From the IMG/VR virus record IMGVR_UViG_3300042691_033063, positions 1-25,901 of that record: a stretch of 25,901 nt of DNA, one strand, 5' to 3'. The position numbers and the translations under genes were made by a program. How positions within the stretch are numbered: the first letter of the stretch is position 1; each line of letters opens with the position of its first letter. This stretch comes from a virus. Positions 14,260-24,985 of the stretch are shown here, one piece after another. The notes under the pieces are model-generated. The model saw only the letters and a program-made list of their open reading frames with translations. It searched no databases and was not told the DNA's origin.

Positions 14260-16533
14260 ATGAACTCAGTATCCGAAAAAATCGATGAAAGAATTCTAAG
14301 GCTACTGGGTCTTAACTATACATATGACATTGATTATGATACCTATTATACTCTCATTAGAGAAGCGATGGTGTCTGGTGCAAAAAGATTGCCACCAGAA
14401 GAACTTGCTTTACTTGCAAATGAAAGAAAAAGAATAAGAGGTAAGAAGGGTAGATTTAAACCAAAGAGTCAGAAGATAAACGCAAATAAGATAGCGACGA
14501 CTAAGTTTTTAAAACCAGCAGTACAACCATTATCAACTCCTTTAATTGCACCTGCAGGCGGAGTCCAATCTTCACAAATTCAACCTGCAAATTTGGCACC
14601 TCTTCAGGGACCTCTAGATTCTATTAAGAAAGTATTAGTTTCTTTCTTAGATTTTAAAGAAGATAGTGCCGACCAAGAAAGGAGAGACGCTGAGGCAAAT
14701 AAAAGGTCAAAAAGAGAGGCTGGACTAGAGACTGTTAAGAAAGGAATGTCTGCCGTATCTGATGCGGTAAAGAAATTTATTTCTCCATTTCAAGGAATTA
14801 TTGACCGTGTGTGGAGATTCCTATTCTTCACATTACTTGGTAATGCATTTACGCAATTAGTAAAATGGTTTCAAGACCCAAAAAATAAAAATAAAGTAGA
14901 AACTTTAAAGAGATTTGTAAAGGATTGGTGGCCTTCTTTACTTGGTGCTTTTGTTTTATTTTTCACACCATTTGGTAAATTTGTAAGAGGAATACTTGGA
15001 ATCGTTGGTGGTTTAACTGGCAAACTAGTTGGTGCAATACCCAAGATTGCTGGGGCAATAAAAGGTCTCAGTAAAGTTTTACTTAATCCTTGGGTTGCTG
15101 TTCCTGCCGCAGCAATTGGTTTAGCAGCTGCTGCTAATGAAGTTACCGGGCAAAGAAAGGCAGCAGGAGTTCAAGCAGAAAATAAAGCACGGGCACAGAC
15201 TGGAAAAGGTTTAGGTGCTCAGGGGACTGACACTATGACCGATAAGGTTCCTAGTGTTGGTAATATGGGTCCAACAACACCTTACGGACTCCTTCAGGGT
15301 GCTGCCCGTGGTGGTTCTGTGATGAATGGATATTCCGGTATAGACAATAACACGGGTCAAAGAATATCCGGATTTGGTCCTGATACTCAATTGATTGCAG
15401 CAATGCCTGGAGAGGTTGTTATTAATAAGAAAACTGTAGATGCTGTTGGTGCGGATACATTTTTAAGTCTAAACAGACATTATGGTGGTTCAGGTGCTAA
15501 CCAACCTAAGTTTGGTAGATTCTTTAATACTGGGGGAATCGTTGGTGGGTTGATGAGTCTATTCAATAGACCTAGAGGACTCAGTACAAGAGGAGTCCAG
15601 GCTGGATTTACTGGTATGGCAAAACAGGGATTTGAAGCCATTATGGGGGGTGATAAGTTTAGACTTGGAGGATGGAAACCACAAATACTTGGTAGAGGTG
15701 CATACTCTGCACCTACGTTAAAAGGAGCTCAACGATATGCTGGTTCTGCAGGGTCTCTGGGTGGAACTCAAGTTCCTGGTGGTGTAGTTAAGACAATAGT
15801 TCCTGGAGGTGCAAGAGGTATAAACATTATTGAACCACAATCTGTTGTAAATCCGTCTACATTTGATAAGGGAAAGGTTTTGGCAGATAGATTACTTTCT
15901 GGTAGGTATTCAAATAGTCCTCTTGCAAATAGACTTCGTTCTCAGTTAACAAGTGGAGTAGCACAGAGAACTGGCATGGGATTTGGAAGAACGCTTTCCC
16001 GTGGCAGTGGATTATTAAATGCTCCTGTCATCAGTGATATGTTATTTCCGGAAGGAACATCATCATATAGTCAACTTACTGGACCTAATGCATATTATAA
16101 TGCACCTGGATATAAAGGTCCTAGACCTATGCAGCGTATGGGTGGTGGATTGATTAAAGAGAATACTGGAATGGATATTCGTGGAGCAACAGCAGATAGA
16201 CAAGCCATTTTCGCTCAACCTGGAGAGTATGTTCTTCCTGTTAATACTGTAAATCGTCTTGGAACTTCTCTCATTGATAAATTAGTTGCAATGACTGACA
16301 GTGACTCAAATGCAGCTAAACTTGGTTACAGGACAAAGAATATTCCACAGATAAAACCATTGACAAGAGATGGTTCTCAAAATGTTGTAACTCTACCACC
16401 AATAGTACAATCGTCTGGAATGAAAGGTGGTGGTAGTGCTGCTGCAGGTTCTAAAGTTCCAACATTCTCAGCAACTTCTTCTAGTGGAAGTTTTGATAGG
16501 TCTACTAATGCTAGTATTTACGGGATTGCTTGA
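14260..16533 (+). CDS. Large virion protein, tape-measure/hub-like (757 aa)
   Basis: Not assigned to a named T4 gene. Features in order: an N-terminal helical segment (1-50), a basic stretch (RKRIRGKKGRFKPKSQK, about 52-70), a charged helix (QERRDAEANKRSKREAGLET), a hydrophobic segment with RFLFFTLLG (186-194), further hydrophobic helices (SLLGAFVLFFTPFG and AVPAAAIGLAAAA), then a long Gly-rich region with PGEVVINKKTVDAVG (from 383) and PGEYVLPVNTVNRLG (from 654), the kind of PGE repeats seen in tail tape-measure and internal virion proteins of many phages. Position between gp51 and gp27 suits a tape measure (T4 gp29 place) or hub component. The next gene shares the RFLFFT motif. The stop overlaps the next frame. 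Confidence 0.75.
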   Translation: MNSVSEKIDERILRLLGLNYTYDIDYDTYYTLIREAMVSGAKRLPPEELALLANERKRIRGKKGRFKPKSQKINANKIATTKFLKPAVQPLSTPLIAPAGGVQSSQIQPANLAPLQGPLDSIKKVLVSFLDFKEDSADQERRDAEANKRSKREAGLETVKKGMSAVSDAVKKFISPFQGIIDRVWRFLFFTLLGNAFTQLVKWFQDPKNKNKVETLKRFVKDWWPSLLGAFVLFFTPFGKFVRGILGIVGGLTGKLVGAIPKIAGAIKGLSKVLLNPWVAVPAAAIGLAAAANEVTGQRKAAGVQAENKARAQTGKGLGAQGTDTMTDKVPSVGNMGPTTPYGLLQGAARGGSVMNGYSGIDNNTGQRISGFGPDTQLIAAMPGEVVINKKTVDAVGADTFLSLNRHYGGSGANQPKFGRFFNTGGIVGGLMSLFNRPRGLSTRGVQAGFTGMAKQGFEAIMGGDKFRLGGWKPQILGRGAYSAPTLKGAQRYAGSAGSLGGTQVPGGVVKTIVPGGARGINIIEPQSVVNPSTFDKGKVLADRLLSGRYSNSPLANRLRSQLTSGVAQRTGMGFGRTLSRGSGLLNAPVISDMLFPEGTSSYSQLTGPNAYYNAPGYKGPRPMQRMGGGLIKENTGMDIRGATADRQAIFAQPGEYVLPVNTVNRLGTSLIDKLVAMTDSDSNAAKLGYRTKNIPQIKPLTRDGSQNVVTLPPIVQSSGMKGGGSAAAGSKVPTFSATSSSGSFDRSTNASIYGIA

Positions 16534-16535
16534 CG

Positions 16536-19274
16536 ATGGCTATTAACGTTCAGAAGTTATTACCTGCAGCAAAGACATCCGCAATTGCAAAAATTGATGC
16601 AAGTAAAATTTCATCATCACTTGTAATCAATAAGAAGAATATTGATACAAAAAAATTAACTGCCCTATCAATTCGACGTAGTGAAGACAACGTAAGTATT
16701 GTAAAAAAATCTTTAATTGATATTGATGGTCTTTTGAAATCTGTATTAACTGAAGACCAAAAAACAGAAAGAACAAAGAGAATTCGAAAAGAGCAAGAAG
16801 AAAACGAACAAAGAGAAACGAAATTAGAAACTCCTAAAGAATCTAAGAAGTTTAATCTTCCAAAAGTTTCTCTTCCTGGAATGAGTTTCTTGGATAGAAT
16901 TAAGAGATTCTTATTCTTTACCGCTCTTGGATGGTTGTTTACAAAATTCCAAGATCAACTCCCCAAATTAACTGGAATTATTAAAATCATTACACCAATA
17001 GCAGGTGTTGTTGAAAATGTATTCAAGTTTATTCTGGAGAGTGTTGTAAACTTTATAGACCGTGGATATCAAACTTACGATAAGATACGTGGTCTTGTAA
17101 AAACGGTTGGTGGCGAAAAGGCGCAGGGTGAATTTGATAAGATATCTGGAAAGTTAAATGAGTATATTAACTATGTTCTAATTGGGGGAATGGCACTCAC
17201 AGGTGCTATTAATACCTTTGCAAATAATGCAAGAAAATATAAACCACCAAAACCAACTCCACAAGGAACTCCTAGAGGACCAGTTCCACAGAGAGGTCCA
17301 GTACAAAGAGTAGTTAGACCAGTACAGGCGGCTTCGATAAAGGCATCTAGAGCAGTCATTGGAAAGCAAGCAACACGTCAACTATTGAGACTTGCAAAAG
17401 GTCCTCTATCTAGATTACCTATTGTCGGAGCACTAGTTGAGTTTGGTCTTTCTTGGGCTCTTGGAGATAACCCTGGCAAAGCAGCATTCCGAGGAGTTGG
17501 AACTCTACTTCTTGGTGCTGTTGGTTCTTTAATTATGCCTGGGTTTGGAACTTTTATTGGTGGTTATGCTGGTGCAGAACTTGCTGGAAAATTATACGAT
17601 GTTCTTTTTGCAAATAAGGCTCCTGGAACCCCAGTTCAAACTCAACGTCGTGGTGGAAAAGTTATCCGACGTTATGCAAAGGGCGGTCAAGTTTTGGGTG
17701 CTAGTGGAAGAACTCTAACAACTAAAAAATCCAAAAAACCATACATTCCACCTAAAGTAACACAACCCGGAAAAGATGTTGGTGGAAAGAAAAATATAAG
17801 AAAACTATTTCCAGACCCCTCGTACAAAATGAGTGTTGCTGAATGGAATTTAGCTGGAGGTGCTGGAACATATGCAGATTATGAAGAGCAATGGAAAAAA
17901 CAAAAAGATAAACCAAATCCATATAAGGCATTAACTAATATAGCTGCGATCCTAAAGGATATTCCTTATGGTATCGGCACATTAATGGGTTCAGCGGTTG
18001 ATGTTGCATTGGGACAAAAGACAGATGAAAATACTTTCAAGAGTATAAGTTTTGGTCTTGAGAATTTATTTGATACCTTTAGAAGTATTTCGAACAAAAC
18101 TTCTCAAGGTGTTTTTGCCATTCAAAATCAAGTTCCTACAATGGCAACTGGGGGGCAAGTTTCTAGAACCTTTACTCCATCATCTCGTGCTGATGGCGAT
18201 CCAATCAAAATTATTGGTACAAGTATCAAGCAGAGAGTAAATGAGTCAATTAGAGAAGTTCAAAAACAAATTTCTGTCAGAGGGGGGAAAAATATTCCAT
18301 CTTCATTGTTTTCTTATGAACCTCCTCCACCCAAAACAAATTACAGTGGTTCATGGAAACCTGCTTCTCCAGGATATTTCAATGCAATTGAATATATTAC
18401 TGGCGATAAAAATTATCCATCAAACTATGATTATGATGGACATGGAACTCCATTTAATTACCACGATCATATTGCTTTTGCTACTCCAAAGGATAAGGAT
18501 AATGCAAAAAAGGCTTTATTGGCAGCAGGTATTCAGACAGGAAGTGAATATCTTGATAGAATTGGTGATCCGGGATATCACGGTTCCAATCAAGCAATTG
18601 ATGTTCCCGGTCATCAATGGGGAGGAGCACCAGGTTCTCCTATAACACAAGCACAATATAATGGTTCTGCTCAAGTGAGAAGAGTATTGGGTATCGATAA
18701 AGTTCAACCAGTAAAAACAAAACCCGGTCAATTACCTTCATTGTTTGATAGACCTGGTGCAAATAAACCAGTTAAGCAAACTGGAATTGCTTCTTGGTAT
18801 GGCCCAGGTTTTTATGGTAATAAGACTGCAAATGGGGAGACATTTCGTAAGGGAGATACTGAATATACTGCAGCTCACCCAACATTACCCTTTGGTACAA
18901 AAGTAACTGTTACAAATAAATCAAATGGGAAAAGTATTCAAGTTAGAATTAATGACCGTGGACCATTTAAAGCGGGTAGAATTATTGACTTGAATAAATC
19001 TGCAAGAGATGCTTTGGGGGGTCAAGACCTTACTGATGTTGATTTGAGTTATCAAGGTGGTGGTTATATTCCAAAACAAACTCCAAAGAATAAATCAGTG
19101 TCTCTCACATCATATCCTTCTTATGCTGATGGTGGCACAAGAATCATGATTCAACCAATCATTATTAAAGAGTCTGTTCCAATTCCAGTATCAAAACGTT
19201 CTGGTGGAGCAACTACCTTTATGGTTGCCGGTGGTGTAAATAGTAGTAATATGCAAAGTTTAGTCAGAGGATAA
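16536..19274 (+). CDS. Large virion protein with C-terminal RlpA-like peptidoglycan-cleaving domain (913 aa)
   Basis: ATG 16536 is preferred over the in-frame TTG at 16530. N-terminal part: a Lys/Glu-rich helix (70-115), then LDRIKRFLFFTALGWLFT (119-136), shared with the preceding protein. Hydrophobic Gly/Ala segments follow (about 292-350). A compact domain around 620-725 has YHDH (642-645) and HGSNQAID (682-689), whose His/Asp spacing recalls metallopeptidases. The C-terminal domain, about 748-845, is RlpA-like double-psi barrel: GIASWYG (750), TANGETF with Glu768, YTAAHPTLPFGTKV and NDRGPF with Asp807, the two acidic residues needed in Pseudomonas RlpA lytic transglycosylase. It probably opens host peptidoglycan during DNA injection, replacing the lysozyme domain of T4 gp5. 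Confidence 0.83.
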   Translation: MAINVQKLLPAAKTSAIAKIDASKISSSLVINKKNIDTKKLTALSIRRSEDNVSIVKKSLIDIDGLLKSVLTEDQKTERTKRIRKEQEENEQRETKLETPKESKKFNLPKVSLPGMSFLDRIKRFLFFTALGWLFTKFQDQLPKLTGIIKIITPIAGVVENVFKFILESVVNFIDRGYQTYDKIRGLVKTVGGEKAQGEFDKISGKLNEYINYVLIGGMALTGAINTFANNARKYKPPKPTPQGTPRGPVPQRGPVQRVVRPVQAASIKASRAVIGKQATRQLLRLAKGPLSRLPIVGALVEFGLSWALGDNPGKAAFRGVGTLLLGAVGSLIMPGFGTFIGGYAGAELAGKLYDVLFANKAPGTPVQTQRRGGKVIRRYAKGGQVLGASGRTLTTKKSKKPYIPPKVTQPGKDVGGKKNIRKLFPDPSYKMSVAEWNLAGGAGTYADYEEQWKKQKDKPNPYKALTNIAAILKDIPYGIGTLMGSAVDVALGQKTDENTFKSISFGLENLFDTFRSISNKTSQGVFAIQNQVPTMATGGQVSRTFTPSSRADGDPIKIIGTSIKQRVNESIREVQKQISVRGGKNIPSSLFSYEPPPPKTNYSGSWKPASPGYFNAIEYITGDKNYPSNYDYDGHGTPFNYHDHIAFATPKDKDNAKKALLAAGIQTGSEYLDRIGDPGYHGSNQAIDVPGHQWGGAPGSPITQAQYNGSAQVRRVLGIDKVQPVKTKPGQLPSLFDRPGANKPVKQTGIASWYGPGFYGNKTANGETFRKGDTEYTAAHPTLPFGTKVTVTNKSNGKSIQVRINDRGPFKAGRIIDLNKSARDALGGQDLTDVDLSYQGGGYIPKQTPKNKSVSLTSYPSYADGGTRIMIQPIIIKESVPIPVSKRSGGATTFMVAGGVNSSNMQSLVRG

Positions 19275-20608: not shown

Positions 20609-20824
20609 ATGGAAAAATCACTTCAACAGCATATCAATAATGACAGGGATGAACTAGATAATCCAAACACAAGTAGTCAGCGTCGTCGTCATTTAGAGGG
20701 TGAACTTGATGCATTAGAGCAGTATCAAGTTAATCATCCAGATGACGACCATGATCCATCGTCTCTAGAACTTTATTGTGACGCCCATCCTGATGCTTTA
20801 GAATGTAGAGTTTATGATGACTAA
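20609..20824 (+). CDS. Hypothetical acidic protein (71 aa)
   Basis: Unrecognised. A helical N-terminal half (LQQHINNDRDELDN, RRRHLEGELDALEQY) is followed by an Asp/His-rich section (HPDDDHDPSSLELYCDAHPD) that could bind metal. It lies between gp27 and further hub genes, so is probably a minor hub or assembly factor. The stop overlaps the next ATG (TAATG). It looks like a protein common in cyanomyovirus hub operons but without a known role. Confidence 0.78.
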   Translation: MEKSLQQHINNDRDELDNPNTSSQRRRHLEGELDALEQYQVNHPDDDHDPSSLELYCDAHPDALECRVYDD

Positions 20825-21240
20825 TGGCAGATCAATATAGAGATAGTTGCATCGACAGACAGAATGTTAATAGAAAAGGACTTAATGGGAATCCAGTTGA
20901 CCCCATAAGGTTGTCTTTTTTTGATAAAGACGGGCAGAAGATCAGTGATGTTACAAGAAGTGAAGCAAATTGTATTGCAGGATTAAATTCTCAACAAAAA
21001 TTTTATTTCCAAGATGGAAATGGTTATCTAAGAGAACTCTTAATTTCTGATGTAAATAAACTCTCTTCAAATGATTGTTTAAGATCTCCAACTATTTCAG
21101 GACAATTTACTTCTGGTGTCGGTAATGGCGACTCTGATTCAACATTAAATAGTGCTGTAGAACAAGCAAACGATCCTGCTATAAATCAATTATTAGACAA
21201 AGCTAAGATTGATATTCCCGCAGACCTAGGAGACTTCTGA
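20824..21240 (+). CDS. Putative virion protein (138 aa)
   Basis: Unrecognised protein translated from a TAATG overlap. The central part looks beta-rich and compact (IRLSFFDKDGQKISDV, QKFYFQDGNGYLRELLIS), with Cys residues at 9, 47 and around 85; the C-terminal part is Gly/Ser/Asn-rich (SGQFTSGVGNGDSDSTLN) ending in a short acidic segment. It lies immediately upstream of the gp5-like gene, so a baseplate hub component is likely by context only. Confidence 0.75.
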   Translation: MADQYRDSCIDRQNVNRKGLNGNPVDPIRLSFFDKDGQKISDVTRSEANCIAGLNSQQKFYFQDGNGYLRELLISDVNKLSSNDCLRSPTISGQFTSGVGNGDSDSTLNSAVEQANDPAINQLLDKAKIDIPADLGDF

Positions 21241-21241
21241 T

Positions 21242-21829
21242 ATGAATCAGTACTCGGGTAACTTTGATTTAAACACGGTATCTTCTCTTCCAAGGTGGTT
21301 TGGTAGAGTAGTTTCTAGTGTTTCTTGGCAAGATAATATCGAGGCAGCGCATTTTGATCCAAAGAATCAGAAAGGATGGGGATATAGATATCGCGTAAGA
21401 TATTTTGGATTACATTCTGGAAATACTCAAGATCTTCCTGACGAACAACTGCCAATGGCTAATGTTGTGATGCCAGTTACTTCTGGTTCTGGTTTGGGCG
21501 GATCTTATGATACTCCAGCAATATTAGCAGGAACAATAGTAACAGGATTTTTTCTTGATGGAATGGGAGGTCAAGAACCTTATATTGATGGGTTATTGAT
21601 TAATTCAAATAATACTGTTCCAAAAAAACAACCTTCTGGTGATGATGGTGGTCTTCAACTTTTTAATGATACATATAAAGGGACAAGTTCACAAACAGGT
21701 TCTTTTGTTCCAGACTATTTGCAAACAATTAAAAAGATTGAAAGACCTTCGGCAGCAAGTAATCAATATAAAGTAACACCACAAAATAATTTAACCATAG
21801 CAGAATTGAGAGCAAGAACTAGAACATAA
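21242..21829 (+). CDS. 5: Baseplate hub OB-fold protein, gp5 N-terminal-like
   Basis: 195-residue protein matching the N-terminal OB-fold of T4 gp5 and VgrG/gpV-type spikes: LPRWFGRVVSSVSWQDNI, GYRYRVRYFGLHSG, LPDEQLPMANVVMPVTSGSG, then AGTIVTGFFLDGMGGQEPYI and DGLLINS. In T4 the OB domain is fused to a lysozyme and a beta-helix spike; here no lysozyme catalytic region follows, and the frame ends with a Gln/Ser-rich linker. A separate downstream gene (23559-24134) has the beta-helix character. The gp5 symbol therefore applies only to the OB part. Confidence 0.85.
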   Translation: MNQYSGNFDLNTVSSLPRWFGRVVSSVSWQDNIEAAHFDPKNQKGWGYRYRVRYFGLHSGNTQDLPDEQLPMANVVMPVTSGSGLGGSYDTPAILAGTIVTGFFLDGMGGQEPYIDGLLINSNNTVPKKQPSGDDGGLQLFNDTYKGTSSQTGSFVPDYLQTIKKIERPSAASNQYKVTPQNNLTIAELRARTRT

Positions 21830-21834
21830 GAAAA

Positions 21835-23556
21835 ATGACAGTACTTCCCGCAGGAACTCCTCAAACTAAAGATGTCGATCAGTCGCCAACGACGCATAGA
21901 CATTCTCAGACTTTTACTGAGATCTCTAAAGTTGCTTGGCAGCAAGATATTGACCTTAGGAATGTAGTTCATATACAAAGTCCTTGCAAAAGTGACAATA
22001 GTTCAATGAAAGGTATTCAGAGAACTATTAAAAACTTACAAACAGACTTGGAGAGAATAAAGAGATTTTCAAATGTAAATTCTGCTGTTGATGCACTTAC
22101 CCGCGAAGATCAAGAACCTGGAAAGTCTATTAAGAAGTTGGTTAATTTTGCAGCAACTGACATTTCTGGTTATGTTAAGAACATTCTAGGAAATGTTCGT
22201 GGTTGGGTGATGAATAAAGTGCAAGATGAGGCAAAAAAAAGATTACCGTTTTTGTTTCCAGGAGAGATGCCATCCTTTATCGATAAGTTGGATAAAGGTA
22301 TAAATGGTATTTCTTGTGCTTTCGCTAAAATTGTAAGAGGTCTTGCTAAAACTGTTGGCAATTTATTACTACAGATGTTAGATAAGTTTCTCAACGGACC
22401 AATGTGTTTGATTGAAAATTTTATTTCTAACTTAGTCAAGAAAATTTTAAAACCAATTGAAAAGGCTATAAAGTCTGCTGTTAAACTTATTGATTCTGGT
22501 CTAGGTAAAGCGGCAAATCTTGCAACAAGTCTATTCAATGCACTAGATTATGTTACTGGTATTTTAAATTTCTTTAAGTGTGATGATGACAAAGCATGTC
22601 CTTCAGTTCAAGAAACAACTTTATCTGGAGCGGGTCAGAACAACCCTCAAGGTGGAGATCCTGTAGGTAAAAACCCATTCACTAGATTTTTATCTGCATC
22701 TGATAGTGCTCCAGCATGTCCGACTAATCCACAACTATGCGGTCCACCAAGAATTCAATTTTTTGGTGGGATGGGAATCGGTGCTATGGCTAATGCAATA
22801 ATTAGTCCCAATTCCAATTCGATTATTGGATTTGATATTGTGAGTCGCGGTTTCAATTATCTCAATCCACCCTTTGCAAATATTGTAGATGAGTGTGGAA
22901 CTGGGTCTGGTGGTGCGATAGTCGTTCAGACTAGGCCATATAGTGGAGGAGATCCTGCAAAAGGTGGTCTTGAAATAAAAAATATTGTTGTAACTGCTCC
23001 TGGTGATGGATATCTTCCTGCACCAGATGGGTCTTTAGGTGGAAATGGATTTGTTTGGAAGGAGTCGAATGAATGCTATGTCAAAAAAGCAAATGGAGAC
23101 TATTATGTAGTTCCCGATTGTATAGAACCACCTTTAGCACCAGGTGATACTTTCTTTAGTTCTAAACCACCTGCACCAGCACCAAACTTAACATACTCTG
23201 TCGTTACTGCAATTGACGAAATATATGTTGAGGATCCTGGTTTTGGTTATCAACCAGGAGATACTTTACAAGTAGTTCCTGATAATGGTGCAGTATTAAA
23301 ACCAATTATAAATGAAAGAGGAGAGATATCTCAAATTGAAGTGGTAAAACCTGGAGTTGGATTTGTAGATCTGCCAGAGATTGTCATAAATTCACCTACA
23401 GGTTATAATGCAAGATTAATACCAGTTCTTAGGGCAATTCCTGTAGAACAAATATCAATCCTTGGTGATGTTGCACCAGGAACAGAGGTAATTTCTGTTG
23501 TTGATTGTGTTGGTAGAGTGCCACCCAGAGAAACATTTGACATAGTACCGAGATAA
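21835..23556 (+). CDS. Large putative baseplate/hub virion protein (573 aa)
   Basis: Not assigned. N-terminal ~30-95: SPTTHRHSQTFTEIS and a helical stretch (SSMKGIQRTIKNLQTDLERI). Residues ~100-250 are amphipathic helices rich in Ile/Leu/Lys (DKLDKGINGI, ENFISNLVKKILKPIEKAIK). From ~300 the protein is a Gly-rich beta region with repeating units: DIVSRGFNYLNPPFANIV, NIVVTAPGDGYLPAP, EIYVEDPGFGYQPGDTLQVV and IEVVKPGVGFVDLPEIVI, each a strand, a PG-x-G-(Y/F) turn and a strand. Several Cys occur in the DECGTGS/CPTNPQLC area. Placed between the OB-fold and spike-like proteins, it is probably a structural part of the cell-puncturing device. Confidence 0.75.
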   Translation: MTVLPAGTPQTKDVDQSPTTHRHSQTFTEISKVAWQQDIDLRNVVHIQSPCKSDNSSMKGIQRTIKNLQTDLERIKRFSNVNSAVDALTREDQEPGKSIKKLVNFAATDISGYVKNILGNVRGWVMNKVQDEAKKRLPFLFPGEMPSFIDKLDKGINGISCAFAKIVRGLAKTVGNLLLQMLDKFLNGPMCLIENFISNLVKKILKPIEKAIKSAVKLIDSGLGKAANLATSLFNALDYVTGILNFFKCDDDKACPSVQETTLSGAGQNNPQGGDPVGKNPFTRFLSASDSAPACPTNPQLCGPPRIQFFGGMGIGAMANAIISPNSNSIIGFDIVSRGFNYLNPPFANIVDECGTGSGGAIVVQTRPYSGGDPAKGGLEIKNIVVTAPGDGYLPAPDGSLGGNGFVWKESNECYVKKANGDYYVVPDCIEPPLAPGDTFFSSKPPAPAPNLTYSVVTAIDEIYVEDPGFGYQPGDTLQVVPDNGAVLKPIINERGEISQIEVVKPGVGFVDLPEIVINSPTGYNARLIPVLRAIPVEQISILGDVAPGTEVISVVDCVGRVPPRETFDIVPR

Positions 23557-23558
23557 AA

Positions 23559-24134
23559 ATGGCAAAATCCAAAAATTACGAAACAAAGACAACAGGAACA
23601 AAGGACGGGCAACTAACCTTTGGAAGTATTCATTCCGATCAGGTAAAGTCTTCGGTCATGCTTCAGGGGCAAGAGTCTCTTGAGTATATTACGATAGACC
23701 AAACTGCTCCTAGAAAAAGATGGATGACCTCTAGATGTAGAGGTAGATATCAAGTTAAATGTGGTGATGATATTCCAAAGGATGAACTTGGGATGTGGTT
23801 CAATGCTGACAGAAGTGATATTCTAATTCAGACAAAAGGTAGATTGAGACTTGAAGCTGAAAATATTGACATAATTGCTCGTGGACCTGATCCAAGTAAG
23901 GGGATTGTTAATATTATTTCAAACGAAAGTGTAAATATTGAGACCAAAAAATTCACAGCAAATGCGAATGAATCCATCAGTATTTTTACTGACGGTAGTA
24001 TGCAACAATCTGCAATAAATATTATGCGAATTTATGGTGGAAGCATTCAGAAGATGACTTCTATGAGTGCAGACAAAACACCATCGTTACCTATACTGGG
24101 TAAAATAGTACAACTAACAAAGCCGCAATCATAA
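23559..24134 (+). CDS. Beta-helix spike-like baseplate protein (gp5 C-terminal-like)
   Basis: 191-residue protein. The first half is polar with basic patches (RKRWMTSRCRGRYQVKCGDD); the second half has the strand repetition of phage spike beta-helices: DILIQTKGRLRLEAENIDII, GIVNIISNESVNIETKKF, TANANESISIFTDGSM. T4 gp5 ends in a similar triple-stranded beta-helix that caps the puncturing needle. With the OB-fold gene upstream, this probably supplies the spike of a split gp5. It starts 2 nt after the previous stop. Direct sequence identity to gp5 is not claimed. Confidence 0.7.
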   Translation: MAKSKNYETKTTGTKDGQLTFGSIHSDQVKSSVMLQGQESLEYITIDQTAPRKRWMTSRCRGRYQVKCGDDIPKDELGMWFNADRSDILIQTKGRLRLEAENIDIIARGPDPSKGIVNIISNESVNIETKKFTANANESISIFTDGSMQQSAINIMRIYGGSIQKMTSMSADKTPSLPILGKIVQLTKPQS

Positions 24135-24136
24135 CT

Positions 24137-24985
24137 ATGTCAAGTTCAAGTGATTTTGAATTAGTTCACGGACAACTCCACGTAACTAATAGAGCATCAA
24201 AACCAGAAGCATTGGGTAGAGGTTCTAAAAGTATTCATGGATCTGCATATTTTCAAGCACCAGTTCATATTGGAAAGGATAGTGATTATGGGAATGTTGA
24301 AGCATCCTTGATGATTGGTAGAGAAACAAATCCAGACACTCCATCAAATGCAAAGAGGTCTTTATTTGTAAAAGGTGATACTAAATTTGAAGGTGACGGT
24401 CAGACTCAAAACGCAGTCTACATCACAGGACCAACAACTGATGTTCTTTATATTGATGGTGATGTATTTGTTACTGGAAAAGTTGACTGTGGTAACAAAG
24501 GAAAATTGGCCGCAAGATTTGCAACTGCAGATGCTCTAGGAAAAACATTTGATATGGTTCATCCATCTAAAGGTAAAGGGTGGAGATTGTCTTATGCATG
24601 TGTGGAAGGACCTGAAATTGGTGTATATTTTAGAGGTAGAGTTACGAATAAAACTGAAATAAATCTTCCAGACTATTGGAAAGATTTGGTTCATGAAGAT
24701 AGTATATCAGTGCAACTTCAACCAATTGGATCTCATCAAAACGTTATCGTGAAGAGATGGGATGATTCTAAAATTTATCTTCAATCAAATGGTGGAATGC
24801 CTATTGATTGCTTCTATCATGTTTATGCGGAAAGAAAAGATGTTAACCCACTTCATGTAGAATATGAGGGGAATAGTTGGAAAGACTATCCAGATCCGAA
24901 TCACTTGAATAAAGATCCTGATGATGAGACTCGGAATTTGTTAGATCCACAGTACAGAGGCCCTAGAAACACGATTACCCGTTAG
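24137..24985 (+). CDS. Tail/baseplate protein with conserved C-terminal fibre-type domain (282 aa)
   Basis: Unassigned virion protein. N-terminal and middle: a beta-rich region with short repeats (GSAYFQAPVHIGKDSDYGN, NAVYITGPTTDVLYIDGDVF, VTGKVDCG) typical of phage fibre shafts. The C-terminal ~150 residues start at TFDMVHPSKGKGWRLSYACV and contain EGPEIGVYFRGR, NLPDYWKDL, QPIGSHQNVIV and FYHVYAERKD with HVEYEGNS, a pattern that recurs at the ends of phage tail proteins. It is the last gene of the hub operon; its stop overlaps a G-run that forms a short hairpin with the next promoter. Function: probable tail structural component, no receptor role shown. Confidence 0.72.
   Translation: MSSSSDFELVHGQLHVTNRASKPEALGRGSKSIHGSAYFQAPVHIGKDSDYGNVEASLMIGRETNPDTPSNAKRSLFVKGDTKFEGDGQTQNAVYITGPTTDVLYIDGDVFVTGKVDCGNKGKLAARFATADALGKTFDMVHPSKGKGWRLSYACVEGPEIGVYFRGRVTNKTEINLPDYWKDLVHEDSISVQLQPIGSHQNVIVKRWDDSKIYLQSNGGMPIDCFYHVYAERKDVNPLHVEYEGNSWKDYPDPNHLNKDPDDETRNLLDPQYRGPRNTITR

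Follow-up and report, generated by a model that had tools for sequence, protein, structure and literature searches.

In bacteriophage T4 the OB fold, the lysozyme and the beta-helix of the cell-puncturing device are fused in one protein, gp5, and the locus described here raises the question of whether this device can be distributed over separate genes and what such a division would mean for its assembly. The locus lies in the IMG/VR record IMGVR_UViG_3300042691_033063, whose 25,901 bases were analysed as a whole (the window, to which all positions refer). The virus is a T4-like, Kyanoviridae-like cyanophage, and the region is its central hub and spike operon. A preliminary description had reported separate genes for an OB-fold protein (OB), a 573-residue protein of no known kind (MID) and a beta-helix-like protein (BH), with the lytic domain moved to a larger protein upstream, and had taken this as a sign of a different spike assembly. 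All four reading frames exist as it had them, the upstream one encoding 913 or 914 residues. Our analysis suggests that the work of T4 gp5 is probably divided in this phage among an enzyme-free OB/MID hub, a separate BH needle and an exchangeable hydrolase encoded upstream.

The OB fold was borne out by several searches. OB matched phrog_1922, annotated as 'baseplate hub subunit and tail lysozyme', at profile positions 20-151 (E=2.5e-28), as well as three other PHROGs annotated 'baseplate hub and tail lysozyme', and a tblastn search with OB alone against phages returned 329 records at E<=1e-5, including 132 from Escherichia phages; the match to Pfam Gp5_OB (E=4.8e-4) fell short of the family cutoff. 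An alignment of 26 OB domains, T4 gp5 among them, contained 13 invariant columns. The resulting profile recovered the T4 gp5 structures (1k28) at E=5e-22, but T4 is itself one of the 26 rows, and it is therefore the PHROG and tblastn matches that provide independent evidence; the profile also recovered 9f4a, the 'baseplate central spike protein' of another phage, at E=1e-12. Judged by sequence, OB is homologous to the OB domain of T4 gp5, the part that binds gp27 in T4.

The 573-residue protein, by contrast with its earlier listing as unknown, is the rest of cyanophage gp5. MID matched the same PHROG as OB at positions 205-450 (E=7.5e-45), downstream of the part matched by OB, and it matched 31 phage records, most annotated as gp5. 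Of these, 29 carry the name of a Synechococcus or Prochlorococcus phage, and in 24 the alignment covers 80% or more of MID. The isolates B23, P-TIM68 and S-SCSM1 are among those in which a single gene encodes OB and MID. The sequence matches establish OB and MID as homologous parts of cyanophage gp5. In the AlphaFold model of MID, residues 301-545 were beta-rich, with a predicted local distance difference test score (pLDDT) mostly >90 per block, and the helical first half was poorly modelled; its best structural relatives among viral models were cyanophage gp5 proteins. We therefore refer to a helical part, MIDN, and a beta-rich part, MIDC. The sub-domain of MIDC that resembles the T4 sheath protein gp18 aligned over 74 residues (Z 7.7, root-mean-square deviation 2.5), near the noise level of the tool, and Pfam Gp18_dom_I was matched by one of 42 MID rows (E=0.016). 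A resemblance of MIDN to dynamin-like stalks was discarded as a helical match of the kind that the tool warns about, in a poor part of the model, and Pfam matches to Baculo_PEP_C, SseC and similar families in the MID and gp5 rows were treated as coiled-coil noise.

Neither OB nor MID of the window contained a lysozyme according to Pfam, and no hydrolase was matched in any of the 42 rows of the MID family. Among 27 gp5-type proteins, Phage_lysozyme, Gp5_C and Gp5_trimer_C each matched only the T4 row. The possibility that MID is a lysozyme or another known enzyme was rejected, as it had no Pfam hydrolase, no sequence match in the PDB and no significant Foldseek match to PDB structures.

The reality of the cut between OB and MID can be judged from relatives. 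In total, 98 records were mapped, namely the window and 97 loci (one of which, L001, comes from the window itself), and a gp27 tree of 49 rows was obtained after dropping those without gp27, with a gp27 of <380 residues or with an identical gp27; the loci were partly picked by similarity to BH and OB, and are thus an uneven sample of cyanophages. The row nearest to the window, L006, is an independent relative with the identical arrangement and with 85, 77 and 93% identity in OB, MID and BH, respectively, which rules out sequencing error as the cause of the split. OB is detached in 19 of the 49 rows (the window and 18 others). Each of these 19 genes ends in TAA and is followed, 1-16 bases downstream, by a gene with its own start, in register 0 in 12 rows, 1 in four and 2 in three. 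Production of OB and MID as a single chain through readthrough or frameshifting, with a split that is only apparent, would be compatible with the 12 in-frame rows, where the gaps are 3 to 12 bases. We regard it as very improbable, given that in seven rows, the window among them, the next gene is in another frame, and because all three registers occur together with TAA stops, neither readthrough nor a fixed frameshift explains all of the splits. In the window the two frames overlap by about 7 bases, and no slippery heptamer was visible by eye. On stops, registers and starts, joining by either route was rejected. A near-identical contig (L004:5545-6422) has a truncated p138, the gene that precedes OB, and a broken OB frame (95% identity over residues 8-195), perhaps through faulty assembly or an indel.

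The case for a separate needle rests on BH, which belongs to phrog_26118 (function unknown). As had been proposed, it is beta-helix-like by profile and structure matches, each of them weak alone. DUF2345, which we take to be the VgrG beta-helix domain, was matched by 19 of 46 members of the BH family at E<=1 (best 1.7e-6), and DUF7305 by 38 of the 46. Up to E=1, the BH profile found only two PDB entries, VgrG 8gra (0.17) and the Anabaena contractile injection system (CIS) protein All3320, 7b5h (0.67). All of the first nine of 50 VIA structural matches belong to contractile systems, in entries for a spike or a baseplate: the best was 7aef (Z 7.1, root-mean-square deviation 3.3, 115 aligned residues), with 7b5h at Z 7.0, and the others were 6u9e, 3pqh, 3pqi, 9cuy, 9jg9, 8gra and 6orj. 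In six of the nine the title mentions a spike, a VgrG or a membrane-piercing protein; those of 7aef and 9cuy give only the machine and not the spike part. All3320 has been likened to the central spike of phage A-1(L) (PMC10966104). In the single-chain model of BH an N-terminal sheet is followed, at residues 85-150, by a stretch of fair confidence with no strands within the chain, as would be expected for three interdigitated chains; this model fits a trimeric beta-helix but cannot prove one.

Several observations weigh against a needle. The top Foldseek E-value for BH was 0.57, and the top VIA Z score lies in a range that the tool calls common. The BH profile did not match T4 gp5C by sequence (probability 0.3%), so that homology between the two was not detected at that level. 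An octad signal at lag 8 was weak (0.35; uncorrected p=0.011 for residues 109-150) and not significant over residues 85-150, and the S-SCSM1 homologue of BH lacks the '(virion protein)' note that marks S-SCSM1 gp5 in GenBank. The weak matches and the missing virion note would also suit a BH that is another beta-rich part of the baseplate or a fibre, with the spike tip supplied by MIDC, which is confidently beta-rich and a covalent part of gp5 in many relatives, or by the downstream protein p282. This alternative appears quite unlikely, since the best PDB structural matches of MIDC were to a sheath domain and not to spikes, whereas the nine best of BH came from spike or baseplate entries and both of its PDB profile matches are spikes. 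Because the individually weak matches agree with each other, the most likely role of BH is that of the puncturing beta-helix needle.

Our search for the missing enzyme confirmed that the upstream 913-residue protein carries a 'lytic transglycolase' DPBB domain, with a PF03330 score of 65.4 bits against a curated cutoff of 28.8. The sequence contains the motifs AAHPTLP and INDRGPF, which presumably hold the RlpA active site. The protein also had a weak match to a tape-measure PHROG (E=0.0036). No hydrolase domain was found in the 757-residue protein encoded before it; the relatives of that gene (39 homologues) yielded six families that are wall-degrading by name, Phage_lysozyme2, GH19, glucosaminidase, amidase, Hydrolase_2 and CHAP.

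Homologues of the 913-residue protein differ in the enzyme they carry. For 43 of them, chosen by their position beside gp27 and with one representative per distinct sequence, Pfam identified DPBB (10), M23 (9), VanY (7), Phage_lysozyme2 (6), Hydrolase_2 (4), SLT_3 (2), SLT (2) and Amidase_5 (1), all eight of which are peptidoglycan hydrolases by name. When six types of enzyme were searched for with phmmer, at least 31 of the 43 received a hydrolase label, and these 31 labels required 16 changes on the gp27 tree (shuffle mean 20.7). Neighbours on the tree carry different enzymes, and both ends of the gene can still be aligned: the window protein and that of L015 align only at 2-580 and 830-913, and in this pair as in L016/L068 and L008/L012 the alignment covers the first 545-634 residues and a last stretch of about 78-85 but not the middle, which holds the differing enzymes. 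In L010 and L020, which have the same enzymes, the alignment is continuous to residue 869 of 1021. Conserved ends around an unalignable middle are the clearest sign of cassette exchange upstream of gp27. Against a general rule stand the 12 of 43 upstream proteins without a hydrolase in the phmmer survey and the two upstream proteins of P-SSM2, in which Pfam detected none; in such cases the enzyme may be divergent or located elsewhere.

The stage at which the upstream enzyme acts also has to be considered. For homologous proteins, the authors of the S-SCSM1 study weigh entry or release (PMC9602691), and those of the S-CREM2 study class the neighbours of the central spike genes as endolysins that may be packaged in the capsid (PMC10665884); the DPBB domain might accordingly serve the final lysis of the host cell, or the 913-residue protein might be an internal protein. 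We consider this unlikely, as the gene is part of the hub operon and adjoins gp27, its product has weak tape-measure matches, and homologues are present in purified virions. By mass spectrometry, both proteins encoded upstream of gp27 were detected in S-SCSM1 virions (PMC9602691, with the GenBank record), as were the two 'endolysins' beside the central spike genes in those of S-CREM2 (PMC10665884), and S-SM1 virions contain gp5 (PMC3037559). The S-CREM2 'endolysin' genes (ORF208/209), just before the central spike genes, have 4,698 and 4,371 bases and are longer than those of the window, and this phage has the longest tail of any cyanomyovirus, about 418 nm (PMC10665884, Table 3), which together would fit a tape-measure role. 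A hydrolase that acts during entry is the reading that we retain.

Across the relatives the order gp27, CP12, gp5 parts, BH and p282 was largely conserved, and the cut points varied. OB, MIDN and p138+MIDC were three genes in 15 rows of the tree; OB+MIDN was followed by p138+MIDC in 13; OB, MIDN and MIDC were joined in one gene in 12; the arrangement of the window, p138, OB and MIDN+MIDC, occurred in two; and seven rows had other arrangements. On the gp27 tree the arrangements required 14 changes (minimum 8, shuffle average 28.2), with two changes for the detachment of OB and 11 for the joining of MIDN and MIDC in one gene. S-SM2 (L089) and Bellamy (L097), with an OB gene of 616-627 residues, were counted as 'OB fused' after manual relabelling. 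Their MIDC genes are enlarged, to 1,424 residues in S-SM2 (L089:5633-9907), where a PA14 domain is annotated, and 1,993 in Bellamy (L097:3952-9933). BH was separate from gp5 in all 44 relatives that hold both, and was fused to p282 once (L077). The five tree rows without a BH match comprise L063, L078 and L079, which end too early, and S-CAM9 and P-SSM2, which have divergent candidates (hhalign probabilities of 92 and 58%; that of S-RSM4, outside the tree, was 7.8%). Detachment of OB is a trait of a lineage and narrower than the separation of BH, and for T4-like cyanophages a divided device appears to be the norm, though little described.

The closest known system is cyanophage gp5 itself (phrog_1922; B23, S-SCSM1, P-TIM68), with homologous OB, MIDN and MIDC in the same order, an adjacent separate BH gene and a gp27-like gene upstream. 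The window differs in having OB as its own gene. In the window and L006, p138 stands alone upstream of OB, and not at the N-terminus of the MIDC gene as in most relatives; the difference in placement implies that this domain moved across two genes. T4 shares with the window a homologous OB domain and its position beside gp27, whereas the OB and MID of the window lack a recognisable lysozyme and include the additional MIDN and MIDC, the beta-helix is a separate gene lacking detectable sequence homology to gp5C, and the gp5 core would act alongside an upstream gene whose hydrolase domains are exchangeable. In T4, gp5 is cleaved at Ser351/Ala352 into gp5* and gp5C, giving the complex (gp27-gp5*-gp5C)3, and dissociation of gp5C frees the lysozyme (PMC3004832); once gp5 has been cut, the T4 beta-helix too is a chain of its own. 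Given this cleavage and the separate BH in 44 of 44 relatives, where it is the rule, the gene split does not by itself imply the different assembly that was proposed.

Spikes of other contractile systems offer partial parallels. The beta-helix part of VgrG and CIS spikes (AlgoCIS 7aef, Anabaena 7b5h) resembles BH through weak individual matches, but canonical VgrG spikes hold hub, OB and helix in one chain. Francisella VgrG is a free protein of 164 residues, thought to lack an OB fold, with PdpA as a possible head (PMC5924787), and as a free needle it resembles the separate BH. In the Anabaena myophage A-1(L), domains of the hub protein gp15 degrade host cells in vitro (PMC10966104). Its wall-degrading domains, as described there, lie outside the spike as in the window, but within the hub barrel protein itself, and its spike is a single chain of OB plus beta parts. 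We found no description of cassette swapping for A-1(L) there.

Probably, then, the device is one in which OB, presumably as a trimer, forms a collar below gp27 that MID lengthens by a helical and a beta-rich part without a recognisable lysozyme. BH would be synthesised as a chain of its own and dock non-covalently, like T4 gp5C after cleavage, and upon sheath contraction the needle would pierce the outer membrane beneath the gp27-OB collar. The protein encoded just upstream of gp27 would then bring a hydrolase to the peptidoglycan, in this phage an RlpA-like lytic transglycosylase. What was observed directly is that OB and MID are homologous to cyanophage gp5, together with the gene boundaries, the DPBB domain and the cassette swaps; trimerisation, docking, the order of action and enzyme activity are inferred.

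The features of the operon are collected in Table 1. It runs on the + strand from 14260 in the order 757-residue protein, 913-residue protein, gp27-like protein, CP12, p138, OB, MID, BH and p282. The window also includes genes typical of T4-like cyanophages (psbA, thymidylate synthase, PhoH-like, single-stranded DNA-binding protein and helicase loader) and genes for a baseplate wedge, a tail tube cap and a baseplate hub. CP12, a Calvin-cycle regulator gene, directly follows gp27 in the hub operon in 46 of the 49 tree rows; the position of cp12 near gp5 was already listed among variable positions (PMC3037559). For p282, a PDB search gave nothing worth naming, and megablast of the hub region against phages returned zero matches.

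Table 1. Positions of the hub and spike features within the window
Feature	Position	Strand	Basis or remark
gp27-distal partner, 757 residues, tape-measure-like	14260..16533	+	phrog_37649 tape measure, E=3.7e-4
gp27-proximal hydrolase carrier, TTG start, 913 residues after initiator	16530..19274	+	
Exchangeable middle cassette of hydrolase carrier, residues 581-829	18273..19019	+	conserved N- and C-terminal parts on either side
DPBB / RlpA-like lytic transglycosylase domain, residues 749-832 of 913-residue protein	18777..19028	+	Pfam PF03330, E=5.4e-18
gp27-like hub protein, 441 residues	19276..20601	+	phrog_350 'tail protein', E=4.4e-81; gp27 assignment based on gene order and annotation of relatives
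CP12 gene within hub operon	20609..20824	+	Pfam PF02672, E=1.8e-13
p138, stand-alone gene in window	20824..21240	+	comparison with relatives
OB-fold protein, 195 residues, N-terminal part of gp5	21242..21829	+	PHROG, Pfam, tblastn, profile
MID, 573 residues, rest of cyanophage gp5	21835-23556	+	phrog_1922 match
MIDN, helical middle part of cyanophage gp5, residues 1-290 of MID	21835..22704	+	
MIDC, beta-rich part of cyanophage gp5, residues 291-573 of MID	22705..23553	+	
Sub-domain like T4 sheath gp18 residues 99-188, residues 461-534 of MID	23215..23436	+	suggestive structural match
BH, probable trimeric beta-helix needle, 191 residues	23559..24134	+	profiles and predicted structure
Extended part of BH, residues 85-150	23811..24008	+	block pLDDT about 63-85, single-chain model
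p282, conserved neighbour of BH	24137..24985	+	comparison with relatives

The locus is mostly ordinary for its family, and the exchange of upstream hydrolases is the part most worth following. We found no account in the open literature of a cyanophage gp5 without lysozyme or of cassette swapping, subscription papers and supplements being outside this search. Many records label cyanophage gp5 as 'baseplate hub subunit and tail lysozyme', yet those tested have no recognisable lysozyme, and the likely wall-degrading enzyme is the product of an adjacent gene; if this is right, many marine phage annotations should change. The natural splits make the hub testable part by part, and the upstream cassette would be a place to study how abundant phages pass through differing cyanobacterial walls. 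We see evenly balanced prospects for the broader proposal of a cell-puncturing kit, in which the domains of an enzyme-free OB/MID collar repeatedly split, fuse and trade places, the needle is always its own chain, and a hydrolase cassette between conserved ends of the gene before gp27 switches between at least six enzyme classes, perhaps tracking the wall chemistry of the host. If this proposal were true, wall digestion and puncture would evolve independently in these phages, unlike in T4.

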